A stretch of DNA of 64,000 nt from Rhodocyclales bacterium (lineage in GTDB: Bacteria; Pseudomonadota; Gammaproteobacteria; Burkholderiales; Rhodocyclaceae), in assembly GCA_028292505.1 (NCBI GenBank), contig JAQGMF010000010.1, positions 310,001 to 374,000 of the forward strand, given 5' to 3'. The notes below the pieces were generated by a model that made no database searches, was not told the DNA's origin, and saw only the letters and a list, made by a program, of their open reading frames with translations. Position 1 is the stretch's first letter. Every line of letters starts with the position of its first letter. Positions 13,455 to 22,659 of this stretch are shown in pieces. The position numbers were made by a program, and so were the translations under genes.

Positions 13455-13841
13455 ATGCTTGATATTGGCATTACACCTGCAGACGAAGCCGAGACGGAGC
13501 CGAGCGCGGTGCTTTCCAAAGCGCTGGTGCGCACCGCCGAACAGCTTGGACTGTCGCAAGCGCGGCTTGCGAAGGTGCTCGGTGTAAGCACGGCGACGGC
13601 CTCCCGCCTCGTCGCCGGACGCTACCGTCTGCAGCGCGAAAGCAAGGAATGGGATTTCGCCGTCCTGCTGGTGCGGCTGTTCCGTTCGCTCGATTCCATC
13701 GTCGGCACGCAGGAGGCCGCCCGTACCTGGCTCAACAATGAAAATCTGGCGCTGTCGGGCATGCCCATCGAATTGATCCAGCATACCGAGGGTCTGGTGC
13801 GTGTCGTGCAGTACCTCGACGCTTCGCGCGCACGGGTTTGA
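13455..13841 (+). CDS. Xre/MbcA/ParS-type antitoxin
   Basis: 128-residue antitoxin with an N-terminal Xre-like helix-turn-helix (QLGLSQARLAKVLGVSTATA, about residues 30-50). It also has the C-terminal MbcA/ParS toxin-binding domain: FRSLDSIVGTQEAARTWLNN, then GMPIELIQHTEGLVRVVQYL. It neutralises the RES toxin and normally represses the operon. Its stop overlaps the toxin start by 4 bases (TTGA). GGAGG precedes ATG 13455, and a TATATT -10-like word lies in the short upstream gap. Confidence 0.93.
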   Translation: MLDIGITPADEAETEPSAVLSKALVRTAEQLGLSQARLAKVLGVSTATASRLVAGRYRLQRESKEWDFAVLLVRLFRSLDSIVGTQEAARTWLNNENLALSGMPIELIQHTEGLVRVVQYLDASRARV

Positions 13842-14551
13842 GCACCTTGTTCGACGCTGCACAACTTGTCGCACTGGCTCGCCCGTTGCGTGCCACGCTG
13901 TGGCGCATGGTCGAGTCGCAACACGTCGCCAGCACCATGAAGCTGGTCGACAGTGCGGCCGAGCAAGACGTATTGGAGATTCTTCTCGAACAGGGCAAGC
14001 CGCCACAGCCCGTCAGCACGCAGACGCTCGACTACCTGCTCGCAAGTCCCTTCCGCTATCCACCCTATCCGTCGGGCTCGCGCTTTCGCGGCAGCACCGA
14101 TCCCGGCGTGTTCTACGGCGCGCGCAGCATGCGCACTGCTGCCGCCGAGCTGGGTTATTGGCGCTGGCGCTTCCTGCTCGATAGTCCTGCCTTGCAACAA
14201 GTCGGGCCCGTGCTACACACGGCTTTCCGCACCAAGGTCGATGCGTCTACCATCGATTTGCGCGAACCGCCGCTCGCCGCACACGTCGCGCTGTGGACCG
14301 CGCCGCGCGACTACAGCGCGACACAGGCATTGGCACGTGAGGCACGCACAGCGGGGCTGCAAGCCATTGTCTATGATTCGGTACGCGATCCGCAGCCGGA
14401 CTGGTGTGCCGCGCTCCTCACACCGGCCGGCTTCGCCAGCCGCAAACCCGATCCGCGCATGCAGTCGTGGTGGCTCACCACCACGCGCCAACGGGTCGTG
14501 TGGCGACGCGATGCGCAAACGATGAGCTTTGCCACCGACGATTGGCAGTGA
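13838..14551 (+). CDS. RES-domain toxin (NAD+-consuming)
   Basis: 237-residue RES-family protein. Conserved features are LWRMVESQHV (the R), SGSRFRGSTDPGVFYGARSM, RTAAAELGYWRWRF (the E) and IVYDSVRDPQP (the S). Characterised RES toxins (MbcT, ParT, P. putida Res) degrade or phosphorolyse NAD+ or ADP-ribosylate a target. Translation appears to start at TTG 13838 inside the antitoxin stop, which would couple and limit toxin synthesis. At 237 residues it is longer than minimal RES toxins; the N-terminal 60 residues are a helical extension. Confidence 0.92.
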   Translation: MSTLFDAAQLVALARPLRATLWRMVESQHVASTMKLVDSAAEQDVLEILLEQGKPPQPVSTQTLDYLLASPFRYPPYPSGSRFRGSTDPGVFYGARSMRTAAAELGYWRWRFLLDSPALQQVGPVLHTAFRTKVDASTIDLREPPLAAHVALWTAPRDYSATQALAREARTAGLQAIVYDSVRDPQPDWCAALLTPAGFASRKPDPRMQSWWLTTTRQRVVWRRDAQTMSFATDDWQ

Positions 14552-15104: not shown

Positions 15105-16733
15105 TCATAACAAACGCCGTGCCGCGACCTCGCCCCACCACGCCGCCTCCTCGAACACCGAATAGCCCGACAGATCGCTGTGCGCGAACTGCAACGGGCC
15201 GTCGACCTCGCGCAGCGCCAGCAAGCCTTTATTGCTGAGGTAACCCGGCGTCGGGCTGGCCATGCCATGACCGCGCAAGGTGATGTCCACCCGCTCGACG
15301 CAGGGCCACAGGTGTTCGTAAGCCATGCTCAGGTCGCCCGCCGCACGTCCCAGCAATTCGGTAGGCGTGGCCGTCTCCAACCAGCGCCGCATCTCTTGTG
15401 GCGAGCGCTCGCTGAGCGCGTCGTAGGCGCTGAACACCGTGTATTCGGGTCGTGCCACGCGGATCAGCTGGTGCGTCGCCACCACGTAGCCCAGGCCCTT
15501 GCCCGCGTATATGACATTGTCCCAAGCCAGCGGCGATTTGGCGCGCTCTTCGGGAAAGCGGCGCATCAGAAAATTAGCAATCATCCATGGCGCGCTCTGC
15601 GGCAGATGCGTCGCTGCATCGAAGCCGAAGCCGGGCATATCGTTCACCACGTGCGCGGCGACGTGCAATGGCATCGCGCAGATCGCATGACGTGCGCGTA
15701 TGCGCAGCGTGCGCGAAGCGCCACCTTCTTGCTGAACGATCAGCGCCTCGACACCCTTGCCTTTGAGTTGAACACTCGCGGCGAAGCCCGACATCCTGCG
15801 CGGTGCAGTCCTGTCATCGAGGCGCGAACCGGCCGCGAAGCCGATGCGCGCACGCAGCGCACGCACGAGACTCTGCAAACCATCCGGCCAGGTCAGCACC
15901 GCGCCGGGCTCCGCATTGCGCGCCTCGCCGGCACGGCTGGCGAAGTAGTGCAGACCGGCGTAGGCGGAGATGCGCTCGTAGCCCGCGCCGTAGTCGTCGC
16001 GGCAGGCGTAATTGGCATACCAGTGCAGCGCGGCGGAACGGTAACCCTCCCGTGTCAGCCAGTCGCGAAAACTCAGCTTGTCCAGCATGCGCCACTGCGC
16101 ATCCTGCGAGGACAGGGCTACCGGAATCGCAAAAGCGCGACGGCCATCGCTACCGACAGCAGATTTGAGCTGCTCGATGGTGCGGGCGAAGCGTTGATGC
16201 TCGGCTCGCTGTGCCGGCGCATCGACCTCGTCCGGCAACAAATCCTCGTACCATTTGCCCGCACGCAGCAGGCGCTCCTGCGGCGTGTGCACCAATACGC
16301 GTTCGTCGAACTCGGGCTGCCTGCCGTAGGCGTCGCCGACTATGACACCAACATCCTGCAGCATTTCGCGCACATGTCGCGACTCCATCGACGGCAGCGG
16401 CAGGTAGTGCGCGCCGGTGGGGCAAGCCTGTCCCGCCATGCTGGCGCCAGCCGCGTTGCCATCCGGTTCGGGGCCTTCGACGACGATGAAATCGCGACGC
16501 CCTTCTTTGGCCAATCGCCAGGCAGCCGCGAGTCCGGCGGCACCGCTACCGATTATGACGATGTCACAGTCGATGTCTGCTGAAGGCGGCGGCAGCTTCG
16601 CCGCATCGCGCAGCGCGTGTCCCTGCGCCATGCCGGGCATGAAGATCCGCACCGGCGGATCTTGCCATGGCAAGCGGCCGCAGCCCGACAACGTGCTTGC
16701 GGCGCTGGCACAGAGAAACTCCCGCCGTTTCAC
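15105..16733 (-). CDS. FAD-dependent amine-oxidase-like oxidoreductase, Tat/lipoprotein-type N-terminus
   Basis: 542-residue flavoprotein. It opens with MKRREFLCAS, resembling a twin-arginine signal, and has a lipobox LSGC at Cys18, so a Tat-exported lipoprotein is plausible. The dinucleotide-binding loop GSGAAG (62-67) in DIVIIGSGAAGLAAAWRLA binds FAD. The C-terminal region (GPLQFAHSDLSGYSVFEEAA) resembles the flavin-binding end of NAD(P)-binding/flavin amine oxidases. Its start overlaps the stop of the membrane spermidine synthase by 4 bases. In this polyamine context an amine- or polyamine-oxidising role is plausible but not shown. Confidence 0.8.
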   Translation of the reverse strand: MKRREFLCASAASTLSGCGRLPWQDPPVRIFMPGMAQGHALRDAAKLPPPSADIDCDIVIIGSGAAGLAAAWRLAKEGRRDFIVVEGPEPDGNAAGASMAGQACPTGAHYLPLPSMESRHVREMLQDVGVIVGDAYGRQPEFDERVLVHTPQERLLRAGKWYEDLLPDEVDAPAQRAEHQRFARTIEQLKSAVGSDGRRAFAIPVALSSQDAQWRMLDKLSFRDWLTREGYRSAALHWYANYACRDDYGAGYERISAYAGLHYFASRAGEARNAEPGAVLTWPDGLQSLVRALRARIGFAAGSRLDDRTAPRRMSGFAASVQLKGKGVEALIVQQEGGASRTLRIRARHAICAMPLHVAAHVVNDMPGFGFDAATHLPQSAPWMIANFLMRRFPEERAKSPLAWDNVIYAGKGLGYVVATHQLIRVARPEYTVFSAYDALSERSPQEMRRWLETATPTELLGRAAGDLSMAYEHLWPCVERVDITLRGHGMASPTPGYLSNKGLLALREVDGPLQFAHSDLSGYSVFEEAAWWGEVAARRLL

Positions 16734-18241
16734 CGGATCACCCGATGCCAGTCCTGTTCGAAATAATGAACCAGCGCCTGGTTGTTGAGCCGGTTCGGCT
16801 CGACATCAGGCGCCAGCATGTCGGCTGGAAAGTGAAACATCTCGCGCGTGCTCGACGCGTCGAGAAAATGCATGGGCACGTCGTAGTGATCGGGTTGCGT
16901 GAAACTGTCGTGGCGACTTGCCAGCACATAGCCCCACTCGCCGAAAGAAGGCACGTTGACGTGATACGGCCAAGTGTAGAAACCCGCTTCGCGCAGCGTG
17001 GCGACGACGCACCAGAAAGCATGTGGCGCGAAGTACGGCGAGGTCGATTGCACGACAACGTAGCCATGCTCAGCCAGATGTTTGCTCACCAGCCGGTACA
17101 TCGGCACGGAGTAGAGCTTGCCGAGCGCGAAGTTCGACGGGTCGGGCAGATCGATGACAATGGCATCATAGGAATGCGCGTCGGTTTCCAGCCACTGTCC
17201 CGCATCGGCATTGATGACATGTACGCGCGGATTGGTCAGCGCGTGTTCATTGATCGCCGTCAGCTCCGCCGAGGTCGAGAACAGGTGCGTCATCGCCGGG
17301 TCGAGATCCACCAGCGTGACATGTTCGAGCGTCTTGTATTTGAGCAGCTCGCGCACCGCCAGCCCGTCGCCACCACCGAGCACCAGCACGCTGCGCGCGC
17401 CGGGCAGCGATTGCATGGCGGGATGAATCAGCGCTTCGTGATAACGGTGCTCGTCGCGTGTCGAGAACTGCAGGTTGCCATTGAGATAAAGACGCAGATC
17501 GTCCTGCCAGCGCGTGATCACCATGCGTTGATAAGGCGTGGTCTCGGCATGCACGATCTGGTCGCCGAAAACGCTCTGCTCGGCCCAGCGCGTCAGTTGC
17601 GAGGAAAACGCCAGGGCGCCGATGAGCATGATTACGACGATAGCGCCGCGCAGCCGTATGCCGCGCGTGCCCTTGATCTCCTTGTCGAATACCCGCGCCG
17701 TCAACAGCGCCACACCGGCGTTGAGCAGGCCGAAAAGCAGTGCTGTGCGCGACATGCCCAGACGCGGCGCTAGCACCAGCGGAAACAGCAAGGACACGAC
17801 GAGTGCGCCAAGATAATCGAAGGTCAGCACGCGGCTCACCATCTCGCGCATCTCGGCCTTGCGGCCATACAGCACGCGCATGACGAGTGGGATTTCCATG
17901 CCGACCAACACGCCGACAACAAACACCAGCGCATACAGCACCGTGCGGAACGGCGCCGAAGCCCAGGCGAAAATGGCGAATAGCAAAGTGGCCGACAAGC
18001 CGCCGATGATGCCGACCAGCAACTCCACGTCGATGAAGCACGCCAGCGCGTCCTCGTCCTTCACGTAGCGCGACAGGTGCGAACCGACGCCCATGGCAAA
18101 CAGGTAGCAGCCGATGATGGACGAGAACTGCAGCACTGTGTCGCCGAGCAGATAGCTCGCCAGCGCACCGGCGATAAGCTCGTAAGCGAGTCCGCAGGAG
18201 GCGACGATGAAAACGGAAAGAATCAGTATGCGATCGCGCAT
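16730..18241 (-). CDS. Membrane-embedded spermidine synthase-like aminopropyltransferase
   Basis: 503 residues with two parts. Residues 1-215 hold about seven transmembrane helices (for example LSVFIVASCGLAYELIAGAL and VLYALVFVVGVLVGMEIPLV). Residues 225-500 form a spermidine synthase domain with the AdoMet/dcAdoMet loop VLVLGGGDG (286-293), VDLDPAM (311-317) and the active-site segment DAIVIDLPDPSN (359-370). It would transfer aminopropyl groups from decarboxylated AdoMet at the inner membrane surface. SpeD, the donor-making enzyme, is encoded in the divergent arm at 22276. It is long compared with soluble SpeE (about 290). The acceptor is unknown. Confidence 0.87.
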   Translation of the reverse strand: MRDRILILSVFIVASCGLAYELIAGALASYLLGDTVLQFSSIIGCYLFAMGVGSHLSRYVKDEDALACFIDVELLVGIIGGLSATLLFAIFAWASAPFRTVLYALVFVVGVLVGMEIPLVMRVLYGRKAEMREMVSRVLTFDYLGALVVSLLFPLVLAPRLGMSRTALLFGLLNAGVALLTARVFDKEIKGTRGIRLRGAIVVIMLIGALAFSSQLTRWAEQSVFGDQIVHAETTPYQRMVITRWQDDLRLYLNGNLQFSTRDEHRYHEALIHPAMQSLPGARSVLVLGGGDGLAVRELLKYKTLEHVTLVDLDPAMTHLFSTSAELTAINEHALTNPRVHVINADAGQWLETDAHSYDAIVIDLPDPSNFALGKLYSVPMYRLVSKHLAEHGYVVVQSTSPYFAPHAFWCVVATLREAGFYTWPYHVNVPSFGEWGYVLASRHDSFTQPDHYDVPMHFLDASSTREMFHFPADMLAPDVEPNRLNNQALVHYFEQDWHRVIR

Positions 18242-18265
18242 ATGGAAGCCGGCTATCTACTTGGT

Positions 18266-18290
18266 CGTCATTCCCGCGAAAGCGGGTACA
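18266..18290. repeat. Dispersed palindromic repeat, family C (single unit)
   Basis: CGTCATTCCCGCGAAAGCGGG is one half of the CGTCATTCC-type palindrome found also at 53053, 54359 and 60221. It lies in the divergent gap between the spermidine synthase and DUF350 genes. Confidence 0.6.
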
Positions 18291-18368
18291 TTTCATCCGA
18301 ACGCACTTGCACACCCAATAAGCGCTTGCTAGTCTGCGACAGCGTTGGAAGGCAAACGGGAGACGGCA

Positions 18369-18761
18369 ATGGTATTACAACAACTCTACGCATACCTGAT
18401 TCATCTACTCGCCGGGCTGGCCGTGGTCGGCGTTTTCGTGGCGGTCTATCTGCAAGTGACACCGTTCCGCGAGATTCAACTGATCTGCGATGGCGGCACC
18501 GCCGCTGCCCTGTCTCTTGCTGGCGCCACACTGGGTTTCGCGCTGACCGTCGCCTCAAGCATTTTGCATAACGACACTTTTCTCATGTTCCTGTTCTGGG
18601 CAGCATGCAGCGCTGCCGTGCAGGTCGTGGCCTACGCCCTGGTCTCGCGCAGCCTGCCCGGCCTCAACGCGGCACTGGAGAACAATAACGTCGCCATGGG
18701 CGGGCTGATGGGGGTCGTGTCGCTGGTCGTCGGCATCATCAATGCCGCAGCCCTGTCGTAA
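18369..18761 (+). CDS. DUF350 family membrane protein
   Basis: 130-residue protein with four predicted transmembrane helices, the DUF350 (YjfL-like) arrangement of two internal repeats: LIHLLAGLAVVGVFVAVYLQ, ALSLAGATLGFALTVASSIL, FLFWAACSAAVQVVAYALVS and GLMGVVSLVVGIINAAA. GGGAGA precedes ATG 18369. It opens the rightward arm of the polyamine/membrane cluster. In enterobacteria the related yjfL stands beside PspA-like and glutathionylspermidine synthase-like genes, an independent link of DUF350 with polyamines. Function unknown. Confidence 0.88.
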   Translation: MVLQQLYAYLIHLLAGLAVVGVFVAVYLQVTPFREIQLICDGGTAAALSLAGATLGFALTVASSILHNDTFLMFLFWAACSAAVQVVAYALVSRSLPGLNAALENNNVAMGGLMGVVSLVVGIINAAALS

Positions 18762-18802
18762 CCCCGCAAAGTTTCTGCAACACCACATTTAGGAGAGCCA
18801 TC

Positions 18803-19804
18803 ATGGGTCTGGGCGATTTCATCAAGAAGCAGTTTATCGACATCCTGCAATGGACCGAGGACAGCGAAGGCGTGCTCGCCTGGCGTTACCCGATGGCCGA
18901 CATGGAAATCCAGAATGGCGCGAGCCTGACGGTGCGCGAATCGCAGATGGCCATTTTCGTGAACGAGGGCAAAGTCGCCGACGTGTTCGGGCCGGGCATG
19001 CACAAGCTCACCACGCAGACCCTGCCGGTGCTCACCTACCTGAAGAACTGGGACAAGCTTTTCGAGTCGCCCTTCAAGTCCGATCTCTACTTTTTCAGCA
19101 CGCGCCTGCAGCTGAGCCGCAAGTGGGGCACGCCACAAGCCATCACTATCCGCGACAAGGATTTCGGCATGGTGCGCTTGCGCGCTTTCGGCATGTATTC
19201 GTACAAGCTGAGCGACCCGAAGAAGTTCTACAGTGAAATCAGCGGCACGCGCGAGCTGTACACGCGCGATCAGCTCGAAGAACAATTGCGCAACCTCGTC
19301 GTGTCCACCATGACATCGACATTAGGCAGCGCCGAGCTGCCCTTCCTCGACATGGCTGCCAACCAGGGTCTGATGTCGGAGAAGATGAAGGAACACATGA
19401 CGCCGGTGTTCGAACAATATGGCCTGGCGCTGGACAACTACGCGGTGGAAAACATCTCGCTGCCAGAAGAACTGCAGAAAGCAATCGACACGCGTATTTC
19501 GATGGGCATGATGGGCGATATGGGCAAGTTCACCCAATACCAGGTGGCCAGCAGTATTCCACTGGCGGCGCAGAATGAAGGCAGCATAGCCGGGGTGGGC
19601 GCGGGCCTCGCGGCAGGCGTCGGCATGGGGCAGGTGATGGCCGATGCGATGCGCTCCAGCCTCAATCCGGCTGCCGGCGCGCCTGCGGCCGAGGCGCCGG
19701 AAGTGCGTCTGGAAAAGCTCAAGGGTATGCTCGACAAAGGGCTGATCTCACAAGCCGATTATGACAATGCCAAGGCAGAGATTCTTAAAAAATTAGTCGG
19801 GTAA
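18803..19804 (+). CDS. SPFH-domain protein with C-terminal SHOCT motif
   Basis: 333 residues of the SPFH/virion-core-like (YdjI-type) family. The SPFH domain spans about residues 20-220, including SLTVRESQMAIFVNEGKVAD, FGPGMHKLTTQTLPVLTYLK and VRLRAFGMYSYKLSDPKKFY. A Gly/Ala-rich linker follows (GSIAGVGAGLAAGVGMGQVM). The C-terminal 30 residues, RLEKLKGMLDKGLISQADYD onwards, are a SHOCT motif used for oligomerisation. There is no transmembrane helix, so it is probably a membrane-peripheral scaffold. It lies 41 bases after the DUF350 gene with AGGAGA upstream, in the same operon. Confidence 0.88.
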   Translation: MGLGDFIKKQFIDILQWTEDSEGVLAWRYPMADMEIQNGASLTVRESQMAIFVNEGKVADVFGPGMHKLTTQTLPVLTYLKNWDKLFESPFKSDLYFFSTRLQLSRKWGTPQAITIRDKDFGMVRLRAFGMYSYKLSDPKKFYSEISGTRELYTRDQLEEQLRNLVVSTMTSTLGSAELPFLDMAANQGLMSEKMKEHMTPVFEQYGLALDNYAVENISLPEELQKAIDTRISMGMMGDMGKFTQYQVASSIPLAAQNEGSIAGVGAGLAAGVGMGQVMADAMRSSLNPAAGAPAAEAPEVRLEKLKGMLDKGLISQADYDNAKAEILKKLVG

Positions 19805-19849
19805 CACTGTGGTGGTTCTGAGAATTCGTATTGGCACGGGGGAGATGTC

Positions 19850-20590
19850 ATGCCGTTGATCGCCATCCTGGTTCTGCTCATCCAGGTTTCTTTTGCATTT
19901 CACGCGCTGAAAACCGGCCGGCCTTACTGGTGGGTTTTCGTCATCATGAGTTTCCCGGTGATGGGCTGCTTGATCTACTACTTCACCGAAGTCTTTCCGA
20001 ACTCGCGTGAGCACCGCAACGCGCACAAAACTGCGCGCAAGATCGTCAGGGCGTTGAAGCCGGACGCGGAACTGCATCGTCGCGCGGAGGAGCTGGAGAT
20101 ATGCGGCAGCGTCGATAACAAGATTGCACTGGCGCTGGAATGCATGAATCATCAGATGTATGACGATGCGGTAAAGCTGTACGAAAGTTGCCTGCAAGGC
20201 GCATTCCAGACGGATGGCGCTTTGCTGTTCGGCTTGGCTCGCGCCGCCGTCGAAGCGGCGGACTGGAACAAGGCCACAGTAACCATTGCGCGCATCAAGG
20301 CCGTCGCGCCGACGCTGCGCCCACAAGAAGTTCGTCTGCTCGAAGCGCGCATTCTGGAGGGTCAGGGCAACACCGATGCGGCGCTCGCCATATATCGCGA
20401 ACTGGTGCCGGTATTCGTCGGCTTCGAAGCGCATTGCCGATATGGCGACTTGCTTTCGCGCCTGGGACAACACGAAGCGGCGAGTCATGTTTTCGATGAA
20501 GTGATCAAACGCGCCAAGCGCTTCAAATCGGCGATTGATGAAGAGCAGGAGTGGGTTTCGTTTGCGCGACGATCCATCGTCAATTCATGA
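19850..20590 (+). CDS. Membrane-anchored TPR protein
   Basis: 246 residues. The N-terminus carries two hydrophobic helices (LIAILVLLIQVSFAFHALKT and WWVFVIMSFPVMGCLIYYFT) in the PLDc_N-like arrangement. The rest is cytoplasmic tetratricopeptide-type helix pairs (KIALALECMNHQMYDDAVKL, ARAAVEAADWNKATVTIARI, EARILEGQGNTDAALAIYRE, YGDLLSRLGQHEAASHVFDE). It probably serves as a protein-binding adaptor at the membrane for the SPFH and DUF4178 partners. It is 45 bases downstream of the SPFH gene. No enzymatic motif is visible. Confidence 0.8.
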   Translation: MPLIAILVLLIQVSFAFHALKTGRPYWWVFVIMSFPVMGCLIYYFTEVFPNSREHRNAHKTARKIVRALKPDAELHRRAEELEICGSVDNKIALALECMNHQMYDDAVKLYESCLQGAFQTDGALLFGLARAAVEAADWNKATVTIARIKAVAPTLRPQEVRLLEARILEGQGNTDAALAIYRELVPVFVGFEAHCRYGDLLSRLGQHEAASHVFDEVIKRAKRFKSAIDEEQEWVSFARRSIVNS

Positions 20591-20627
20591 AGTCCGTGAC
20601 AGCGCGCTCGGCCTGAGCGCCAAATCT

Positions 20628-22124
20628 ATGTACCAGATCGCCTGCCCCAGTTGTGGAGCACAAGTCGCGTTTCGTTCAGCCGCCTCGGTCATGGCGGTGT
20701 GCGCCTATTGCCAGAGCACGCTACTGCGCGATGCCGATTCGGTGCGCGACATCGGCAAGATGTCGGCAGTGCTGGAAGACTACTCGCCGATCCAGATCAA
20801 TACCGCTGGCATGTTCGAAGGCAAGCGCTTCACTGTCGTCGGGCGTATTCAATTGGAATACGAGGACGGTTACTGGAACGAATGGTATGCGCTGTTCGAC
20901 GACGGCACTGCATGCTGGCTATCCGATGCCTCGGGCAAGTACGCGCTGACGACTCAGTCGTCCGCCGTGCCGCAGGAAGTGCCGATCTTCGAGCGCATCC
21001 AGCCCGGCGGCCGCTTTGCTTTCGAGGGCGCGGGCTACGTCGCTTCGGACGTGCGCACTGCGCGCTGCACCGGCGGCCAGGGCGAGCTGCCCTTTAAGGT
21101 CGGCGAGGACTGGCAGGCCAAGGTCGCCGACTACCGCAGCGGCCCGCGCTTCCTCACGCTCGATTACTCCGACGGACCGGCGCCCGTCGCTTACGTCGGC
21201 AAAGCCGTGACGCTGGAGACGATGGCCTGCCAGTTGTTGCGCGAGGAAACGCAGATCGAGCAAAGCGCCGGCAAGCTGCGCGGCAGCACCGCCAACCTGG
21301 AGTGCCCGAACTGTGGCGCATCGATTGCCTACCGGCCGGGCATCGCGCAACACCTCGTCTGCCAGACTTGTCACGCGGAAGTCGCGGCACGCGCCGGACA
21401 GGCCGAAGTACTGGCGAAGAATGAGGAACTCGAACAGCGCACGACCACGCTCGCACTCGGTGACATCGCCAAGATTGGTGGCGCGGCCTGGACTCTCATC
21501 GGCCTCATGGAGTGCCGCGAAACGGGCAGCACGGAAGAGGCATCGACCTGGGTCGAATACCTGCTGTATCACCCGCAGAAAGGCTTTCAATGGATCGTCG
21601 AAAGCATGGAGGGCTGGGACCTGGTGACGGTGCTCGATGAGTGGCCTGAAGCGGCAGGCAATGGCCAGCTCAGGCTGCGCGGACAGGTCTTCAGCAAGCT
21701 CTACGACTATGGTGCGGAAGTGATCTGGGCGGCAGGCGCCTTCAACTGGCGTGTACACATCGGCGATCGCGTTAGCATCAGCGATTTTAAACAAGGCAAT
21801 ATGACGCTCACCGCCGAGCGCAGCGCCAGCGAACTGAACTGGAGTCTAGCAAAACGCGTTGCCGCGCGCGATGTGCTCGGCTGGTTCGGCAAGGCGGCCG
21901 AAGCGGGAGGTTTGCCACGACAAACTGCCACGGTCAGCACCGGCGGCACGCGCGGCCAGTTGCGCACCGTTGCCTGGATATTCACAGCGCTGATCGTCGT
22001 GCTGAACATCCCCGTGCTGTTCTCCAGCGGCTTCGACAACATCGAGATCCCGTTCTTCGGCCTGATCGCTTTGTGGTTTCCTATCGGCAAGTTCGGCGGT
22101 TCCAGTGCGGGGGATGACGACTGA
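20628..22124 (+). CDS. DUF4178 protein with two zinc ribbons and C-terminal membrane helices
   Basis: 498 residues. Two zinc-ribbon pairs are visible: C6-C9/C25-C28 (CPSC...CAYC) and C226-C229/C245-C248 (CPNC...CQTC). Each precedes a DUF4178 beta-rich domain (about 50-215 and 270-420, for example IGGAAWTLIGLMECRETGST). The end is hydrophobic (VAWIFTALIVVLNIPVLF and IEIPFFGLIALWFPIGKF), so the protein is membrane-attached. ATG 20628 is the first Met upstream of the first zinc ribbon; the Shine-Dalgarno signal is weak. Its stop overlaps the next ATG (TGATG). No reaction is known for DUF4178; co-occurrence with SPFH, DUF350 and SpeD genes is the main clue. Confidence 0.85.
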   Translation: MYQIACPSCGAQVAFRSAASVMAVCAYCQSTLLRDADSVRDIGKMSAVLEDYSPIQINTAGMFEGKRFTVVGRIQLEYEDGYWNEWYALFDDGTACWLSDASGKYALTTQSSAVPQEVPIFERIQPGGRFAFEGAGYVASDVRTARCTGGQGELPFKVGEDWQAKVADYRSGPRFLTLDYSDGPAPVAYVGKAVTLETMACQLLREETQIEQSAGKLRGSTANLECPNCGASIAYRPGIAQHLVCQTCHAEVAARAGQAEVLAKNEELEQRTTTLALGDIAKIGGAAWTLIGLMECRETGSTEEASTWVEYLLYHPQKGFQWIVESMEGWDLVTVLDEWPEAAGNGQLRLRGQVFSKLYDYGAEVIWAAGAFNWRVHIGDRVSISDFKQGNMTLTAERSASELNWSLAKRVAARDVLGWFGKAAEAGGLPRQTATVSTGGTRGQLRTVAWIFTALIVVLNIPVLFSSGFDNIEIPFFGLIALWFPIGKFGGSSAGDDD

Positions 22125-22279
22125 TGTGGCGCTTCCTCTACATCATTTATGCCATTGTCGTCACAGTCGCGACGACAAGTCTCAATGGCATAGCCAACGG
22201 CAGGGGCTCCAGCTATCGCAGCTGGGGCGGATCGAGCTACGGCAGTGGCTATTCCGGCGGCGGCTCGTTCCATAAATGA
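22124..22279 (+). CDS. 51-residue membrane-anchored Gly/Ser/Tyr-rich small protein
   Basis: A short gene locked between DUF4178 and speD. Its ATG overlaps the DUF4178 stop (TGATG), and its TGA overlaps the speD ATG (ATGA). It encodes an N-terminal hydrophobic helix (MWRFLYIIYAIVVTVATTSL) and a low-complexity tail rich in Gly, Ser and Tyr (SYRSWGGSSYGSGYSGGGSF) ending in HK. Coupling on both sides argues strongly that it is translated. The tail resembles those of small proteins that accompany DUF4178 genes. Function unknown; a flexible membrane-tethered partner of the cluster is likely. Confidence 0.8.
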   Translation: MWRFLYIIYAIVVTVATTSLNGIANGRGSSYRSWGGSSYGSGYSGGGSFHK

Positions 22280-22659
22280 CAACCGCAACGACGCTCGGCC
22301 AGCACCTATTGCTCGATCTGAACGGCGTGTCTTCCGCGCTATTGGGTGACACGGCGCAGATCGAAAATGTGCTGCGCGAAGCAGCGCGTCTTGCCGGCGC
22401 GACGCCGATCCATGCCCACTTCCATCACTTCGGGCCGGGCATGGGCGTAACCGGCGTACTGCTGTTACGCGAATCGCATATCAGCATCCACACCTGGCCG
22501 GAGCATGCCTTTGCGGCGGTGGATGTGTTCATGTGTGGTCAGGCGCAGCCGGGAGTAGCAACAGCGCACATTGCCGCAGCCTTTGCGGCAGCGTCGCATT
22601 CCATCAGGAAGCTCGATCGTGCCACGGCGTTCGCAAAGCAGGATTGTAGGTTGGGGTGA
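22276..22659 (+). CDS. speD: S-adenosylmethionine decarboxylase proenzyme
   Basis: 127-residue class 1B AdoMet decarboxylase that makes the aminopropyl donor for spermidine synthase. The self-processing serine is S67 in ESHISIHTWPE, giving the pyruvoyl group. H72 and C87 (DVFMCG) have exactly the spacing of the T. maritima enzyme (S63/H68/C83). It is coupled by ATGA to the 51-residue gene. The last residues (CRLG) and the stop codon are encoded by the left arm of the dispersed repeat at 22646-22748. The partner aminopropyltransferase is the membrane protein at 16730. Confidence 0.95.
   Translation: MTTATTLGQHLLLDLNGVSSALLGDTAQIENVLREAARLAGATPIHAHFHHFGPGMGVTGVLLLRESHISIHTWPEHAFAAVDVFMCGQAQPGVATAHIAAAFAAASHSIRKLDRATAFAKQDCRLG

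Follow-up and report, generated by a model that had tools for sequence, protein, structure and literature searches.

An enzyme pair made up of an S-adenosylmethionine (AdoMet) decarboxylase (AdoMetDC) and a linked fusion of MFS and SpdSyn domains was reportedly described by Li in 2019, from bacteria said to have a functional AdoMetDC and no spermidine; the fusions reportedly failed to complement an Escherichia coli speE deletion and were linked to DUF350, and a non-polyamine acceptor is said to have been proposed there, the acceptor itself not being identified. As far as that account goes, the same enzyme pair and a DUF350 gene are found in the cluster of eight genes considered here, at positions 15105–22659 of a stretch of 64,000 nucleotides (nt) from a Rhodocyclales bacterium (assembly GCA_028292505.1, contig JAQGMF010000010.1, positions 310,001 to 374,000 of the forward strand; this whole stretch is referred to hereafter as the window). 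We propose, with confidence standing at about even, that the membrane-bound SpeE of this cluster aminopropylates the C-terminal lysine of a small “tail” protein encoded on the opposite strand, and that the cluster is thus a protein-modification system.

Operons of this general type are already in print. Those described by Ravi (2024, mSystems, PMC11237479) combine a CesT/Tir–PspA dyad with a 7TM-SpdSyn fusion, DUF350, DUF4178 and a “novel lipoprotein”, and the passages of that paper which deal with them suggest polyamine monitoring or the aminopropylation of other substrates, with a role at the membrane or envelope. The 7TM-SpdSyn fusion and its DUF350 and DUF4178 neighbours, as those passages present them, are common to the window, whereas the CesT/Tir–PspA dyad and lipoprotein partner are replaced by an SPFH–SHOCT protein, SpeD and a tail protein of 51 residues (PspA, CesT-type and ATP-grasp families found no match among the eight window proteins in Pfam or NCBIfam). 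The window cluster is a variant of the published operon type without PspA, and the idea of a non-polyamine acceptor likewise belongs to that earlier work. Section 19 and the other passages of the paper drawn on here make no mention of a C-terminal lysine; queries on aminopropyl-lysine in proteins, on aminopropyltransferases with a C-terminal lysine and on membrane aminopropyltransferases returned no report of the tail in the open-licence PMC literature, and as far as that literature was searched the Lys-tailed partner has not been described before.

A second relative is the E. coli system of peptide-spermidine ligases, YgiC and YjfC, with the DUF1190 proteins YgiB and YjfM, reportedly the subject of Pederick (2023, Biochemistry 62:899); the ligases carry the RefSeq product name peptide--spermidine ligase and are termed peptidylpolyamine synthetases in a paper citing that work. 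In E. coli K-12, YjfM (L117:7388-8026) ends in -HWGG and YgiB (L119:745-1416) in -SMGG, in each case after a tail containing RGG[FY]G and beside the ligase gene, which suggests that the Gly-Gly end marks where the ligase might act. The yjf operon resembles the window in its DUF350 gene, its exported Gly/Ser-tailed neighbour and its polyamine chemistry on a peptide, and differs in pairing an ATP-grasp ligase with a Gly-Gly end rather than an aminopropyltransferase with a Lys end (DUF1190 itself found no Pfam match among the eight window proteins). By this analogy the last residue appears to suit the neighbouring enzyme, Gly-Gly for a carboxylate ligase and Lys for an aminopropyltransferase, the two E. 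coli proteins being a small sample.

The lysine-ended tail protein

The tail protein of the window (22124..22279, + strand) consists of 51 residues with a transmembrane (TM) segment and a Gly/Ser/Tyr-rich tail; its last two codons, CAT AAA at 22271..22276 (+), encode the C-terminal His-Lys and are followed, as the junction sequence reveals, by a TGA stop that overlaps the start of speD. It has no lipobox, no Pfam or NCBIfam family matched it at E 0.01, and neither it nor the TPR protein of the cluster had a PHROG match below E 0.05. The first-pass annotation of this stretch had suggested that the product might be an aminopropylated membrane component, an idea that gains support here and that the passages cited above had voiced before (Ravi 2024, PMC11237479). 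What that annotation missed is that the 51-residue protein is the most informative part of the cluster and the likeliest such component.

To place the protein among relatives, 82 stretches (L035–L116) were fetched and searched with profiles built from the window proteins; many of these stretches end early, and the per-stretch gene counts are therefore lower bounds (SpeE in at least 73, DUF350 in at least 76, DUF4178 in at least 73, SPFH in at least 61, the flavoprotein in at least 47 and SpeD in at least 42). A C-terminal lysine is present in 82 of 82 counterparts, drawn from the window and 81 of the 82 other loci (51 primary, window included, 15 extended, eight fused and eight distant); the locus set aside is L106, whose DUF4178 stands alone, no further cluster gene having been found nearby. 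The lysine is kept in all four of these architectures, which include micro-open reading frames (micro-ORFs), tails fused to DUF4178 and larger exported proteins, and across three phyla (Pseudomonadota, Gemmatimonadota with L112, and Bdellovibrionota with L044–L046). Silvimonas (L036, L043) and Novosphingobium (L113) are among the carriers of the cluster. Elsewhere the tails have little in common: 71 of the 82, compared without gaps from the C-terminus with the last two residues left aside, show a median identity of 11%.

The conservation holds when the C-terminus plays no part in finding the protein. A profile of the 51-residue protein recovered 20 relatives in the first 50 loci, every one ending in -HK. 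A frame with this ending lies just downstream of DUF4178 in 49 of the 50, and in the fiftieth (L059) the profile-found copy is one gene further on. Because that downstream search had asked for -HK, we repeated it as a purely positional scan over 73 DUF4178 loci: an adjacent TM micro-ORF was found in 62, of which 55 end in Lys, and in the other seven the scan took a different ORF while the DUF4178 protein itself ends in -HK as a fused tail. The 11 loci without a scan match comprise L092 (fused), L059 (a gene further off) and nine with an -HK ORF outside the scan’s limits on start codon or hydropathy. As a control, -HK closes an open frame at this position in 49 of 50 loci, against four of 50 for the next commonest dipeptides; at random places -HK was met 28 times in 2000 and any Lys 128 times in 2000.

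The codons used over the 49 loci (CAC 36, CAT 13; AAA 29, AAG 20; TGA 18, TAA 18, TAG 13) vary for His, Lys and stop alike, so that it is the protein rather than the DNA that is conserved. We rejected the notion that the lysine arises incidentally from an ATGA in which the stop codon overlaps the following start, both because all three stop codons and both Lys codons are in use and because in most loci with a long DUF4178 protein the next gene does not overlap.

Beyond near relatives the ending changes to -RIK/-RVK, -GGGK, -HTGK or -RHGK at the same place between DUF4178 and DUF350, and across all 82 proteins the final Lys is preceded by His in 65, by Gly in 11, by Val in four and by Ile in two (another Lys falls within the last 25 residues in 13). 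Differently built operons encode an exported partner of 78–100 residues ending in -GGK or -SGK (L100–L103, L115), or one of 336–576 residues ending in -RGK or -SGK (L105, L110 and L116, the last two with a lipobox); the eight loci with a distant SpeE thus carry other exported proteins that likewise end in Lys, and no Pfam family matched the tails of L100, L105, L110, L115 and L116. Two of these loci are PspA operons like those already published, L100 with the CesT_Tir–PspA dyad and L110 with DUF2170–PspA. In eight loci the Gly/Ser tail with its -HK is fused to the C-terminus of DUF4178, a form that turns up twice, in separate parts of the SpeE tree (L091, lacking SpeE, is not on the tree). That tree has 74 rows, and three changes suffice on it for the classes of penultimate residue (least possible two; shuffled mean 16.2).

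The membrane SpeE and its candidate acceptor

The SpeE gene (16730..18241, − strand) encodes a fusion of seven TM helices and an aminopropyltransferase domain. It passes the NCBIfam model NF002956, polyamine aminopropyltransferase, at 690.2 bits (cut-off 472), fails that of the canonical soluble spermidine synthase, TIGR00417, at 114.5 bits (cut-off 249.55), and matches Pfam Spermine_synth above the gathering cut-off at 118.5 bits. An AlphaFold2 model (predicted local distance difference test, pLDDT, 86.6) bears out the seven helices that the first-pass annotation had counted, each of them long, followed by the SpdSyn domain. Its closest solved folds are the soluble triamine/agmatine aminopropyltransferase of T. 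thermophilus (1uir/3anx) and a plant thermospermine synthase (6bq2), both of which use acceptors larger than putrescine. The catalytic Asp residues of 3anx and 6bq2 align with those of SpeE; unlike it, both are without a membrane domain, and SpeE has a D-[FL]-P-D-P loop that is kept in 73 of 73 homologues.

Loop charges give a predicted topology. Averaged over 74 SpeE sequences, the loops that follow TM2, TM4 and TM6 hold 2.5, 3.6 and 3.5 Lys and Arg residues together, against 0.2, 0.7, 1.2 and 1.35 for those that follow TM1, TM3, TM5 and TM7, which by the positive-inside rule puts the enzyme domain outside. The lipoprotein versions of the tail (L110, L116) imply that the tail would be outside too; the SpeE domain is hence predicted to share the outer face with these forms and with the flavoprotein of the cluster, which bears a twin-arginine translocation (Tat) signal.

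SpeD (22276..22659, + strand) is of the prokaryotic AdoMet decarboxylase type, passing TIGR03330 at 127.3 bits (cut-off 75.65) and Pfam AdoMet_dc, above its gathering cut-off, at 120.0 bits. Neofunctionalised homologues of this decarboxylase exist, and the assignment to AdoMet, as opposed to ornithine or arginine, is putative and made from gene context.

Lysine carries an aminobutyl side chain, the group that also occurs in putrescine; to aminopropylate a lysine would therefore repeat the chemistry of spermidine synthesis. We envisage that SpeD makes decarboxylated AdoMet (dcAdoMet) in the cytoplasm and that the 7-TM SpeE fusion uses it to aminopropylate the last lysine of the membrane-anchored tail protein at its epsilon-amine, so that the peptide would end in a residue resembling carboxyspermidine. 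The reaction would probably take place on the periplasmic face, with dcAdoMet carried across by the 7-TM part or by DUF350; an SPFH/DUF4178 assembly may hold the tail protein in place at the membrane; in loci that have it, the amine-oxidase-like flavoprotein might act on the modification or undo it. On this evidence the tail protein is the best candidate for the missing aminopropyl acceptor.

Several observations weigh against this proposal. The variable penultimate residue means that no strict recognition motif is common to all tails, and the tracking of tail class with the SpeE tree is also given by plain co-inheritance. Part of the 82 was picked with the C-terminus known, namely nine loci among the first 50, which the -HK scan alone had turned up, together with L100, L102, L105 and L116. 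The PspA of L110, a cytoplasmic protein, ends in Lys as well, and the lone DUF4178 of L106 has no Lys-ended TM ORF nearby. One genome (G047, locus L084) has the tail and no match to the membrane SpeE, the DUF350 gene there lying 506 bases from the contig edge on the side where the arrangement of the window places SpeE. A periplasmic catalytic domain would require export of dcAdoMet, for which we know of no precedent.

Finally, the invariant lysine could instead serve recognition or anchoring: it might be an address or a point of contact by which SPFH/DUF4178, the membrane or the envelope holds it, while the aminopropyl group goes to another acceptor, for instance a lipid or a polymer of the envelope. 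That the tail adjoins or is fused with DUF4178 would suit such a role, as would the frequency of SPFH and DUF350 (at least 61 and at least 76 of the 82 stretches) and the Gly/Ser-rich tails, such tails being common linkers. The lysine is kept, however, in L105, L110 and L116, which lack the double-DUF4178 protein, carry the tail on a larger exported protein of unrelated kind and still have SpeE and DUF350 in common; the DUF1190 proteins linked to ligases in E. coli, both of them ending in Gly-Gly, suggest that the last residue follows the chemistry of the neighbouring enzyme. We regard an address function as rather unlikely.

SpeE might also be a plain membrane-bound synthase of spermidine or another polyamine, releasing a free product at the envelope, with SpeD and SpeE forming the spermidine route of the organism. 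The first-pass annotation had itself raised the case of an only spermidine route, and in gene content this is what we find: the cluster’s own SpeE and SpeD are the only Spermine_synth and the only AdoMet_dc gene found in the 92.7%-complete genome, which also carries two PF02784 and one PF01276 decarboxylases, so that putrescine may be made. The intact catalytic motif and the name of the NCBIfam model also fit a free product. Against it, four relatives (G012, G036, G041, G085) have, besides the membrane SpeE, another SpeE-like protein whose match is confined to the enzyme domain, so that one may be unable to stand in for the other; bacteria with such fusions reportedly contain no spermidine and the fusions are said not to complement an E. 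coli speE deletion; and the invariant lysine is left unexplained. We hold a free polyamine product to be unlikely. In one of the four relatives (G041, locus L055, contig C21) the cluster lacks an adjacent SpeD and the one SpeD of the genome lies elsewhere, beside the second SpeE-like gene; a shared supply of dcAdoMet is possible.

Conservation and gene content of the cluster

All eight genes were confirmed in the window, by coordinates and by Pfam and NCBIfam matches, on the strands and with the spacing first assigned to them, and their grouping, the TPR gene excepted, is far from chance. In a survey of 150 genomes, the window’s own included, a full-length membrane SpeE (E <= 2.7e-176) occurs in 38 of the 39 genomes that bear DUF4178 and in none of the 111 without it; SpeD is present in 38 of the 39 and also in 24 of the 111, the one DUF4178 genome lacking it (G016) being 79% complete. 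The first-pass annotation is thereby borne out as to conserved co-occurrence, and also as to a membrane-embedded aminopropyltransferase grouped with SPFH, DUF4178 and DUF350.

On the minus strand, the flavoprotein gene (15105..16733, GTG start) overlaps that of SpeE by 4 nt. Its product, a flavin adenine dinucleotide (FAD) protein of amine-oxidase fold, matches Pfam NAD_binding_8, DAO, FAD_binding_2 and Amino_oxidase (26.5 bits; cut-off 19.8). A sequence search of solved structures returned nothing at E 0.001, and it was the fold search alone that informed on its nature: with the AlphaFold2 model (pLDDT 83.8) the top Foldseek match is the spermidine dehydrogenase SpdH (7d9h, E 1.2e-20, 16% identity), followed by bacterial monoamine and putrescine oxidases (15–18% identity over the group, SpdH included), and protoporphyrinogen oxidases score nearly as high as the amine oxidases. 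Earlier called “Tat/lipoprotein-type”, the protein earns the first half of that label generally, every one of 12 aligned homologues having a twin-arginine, and the second half in part, a lipobox (LSGC in the window) being found in seven of the 12, the window’s among them; a looser motif scan of 27 of the flavoprotein matches gave 26 and nine. The export signal also agrees with the periplasmic placing first suggested for the oxidase.

The amine-oxidase fold, the Tat signal and the overlap with SpeE could be taken to mean that it is the flavoprotein, in a cross-linking of lysyl-oxidase type, and not SpeE that acts on the lysine. Because 35 of the 82 stretches, all eight distant loci among them, gave no flavoprotein while the lysine is kept (some of the 35 are cut by contig ends), we consider this very improbable.

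On the plus strand, the genes from DUF350 to SpeD are separated by gaps of 37–45 nt or overlap. The DUF350 membrane protein (18369..18761; PF03994, 95.4 bits) is followed by the SPFH/Band-7 protein with its C-terminal SHOCT domain (18803..19804; PF13421, Band_7_1, 255.4 bits; PF09851, 30.0 bits), the TPR membrane protein (19850..20590; Pfam TPR matches) and the DUF4178 protein (20628..22124, its start codon set by comparison with homologues), which combines CxxC-type zinc-ribbon-like stretches, two DUF4178 domains (PF13785 over two stretches, 93.6 bits) and a C-terminal TM segment. The scores for PF03994, PF13421, PF09851 and PF13785 all exceed the gathering cut-off. A half-size DUF350 of about 70 residues adjoins SpeE in 28 of the 82 loci (for example L113:9703-9912), extra to or replacing the full-length gene.

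The TPR protein had been counted as a member of the cluster, a claim we reject: none of the first 50 loci, the same-genus L047 included, has a homologue at E 1e-3 (the search covered these 50 loci). Other genes occupy its place between SPFH and DUF4178 in L051 and L059.

A defence system, tried with PADLOC at E 0.01, was likewise rejected. The matches were mad2 for the SpeE enzyme domain (1.1e-17), probably through the shared Rossmann methyltransferase-like fold, HEC-08 for DUF4178 (0.0087) and C3a186 for the flavoprotein (0.0037), with the tail protein unmatched. Just upstream of the cluster, at window 13455-14551 (+), lies a RES–Xre toxin–antitoxin pair (Xre-like-HTH/Xre_MbcA_ParS_C and a RES domain). 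Elsewhere, the Alteromonas mediterranea plasmid pAMCP48-600 (L116) carries the row SpeE–SpeD–“toxic anion resistance”–DUF4178–lipoprotein–DUF350 beside a DNA cytosine methyltransferase.

A possible polyamine chemistry of protein ends

For bacteria with an AdoMet decarboxylase, a membrane SpdSyn fusion and, reportedly, no spermidine, an acceptor has so far been lacking; a C-terminal lysine on an exported protein of the cluster’s own makes the question of the acceptor answerable by a single mass-spectrometry experiment. Aminopropylation of these exported tails, single or repeated, may be a new post-translational modification that builds protein-bound, spermidine-like or longer polyamine ends at the envelope, a proposition to which we lend a little less than even confidence. 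Such a bacterial modification would echo the lysines of silaffins. If true, it would match by aminopropyl transfer the peptidyl-spermidine that ligases make, and bacteria would have in the polyamine chemistry of protein termini a general means of placing positive charge at the envelope, one arrived at with two unrelated enzymes.

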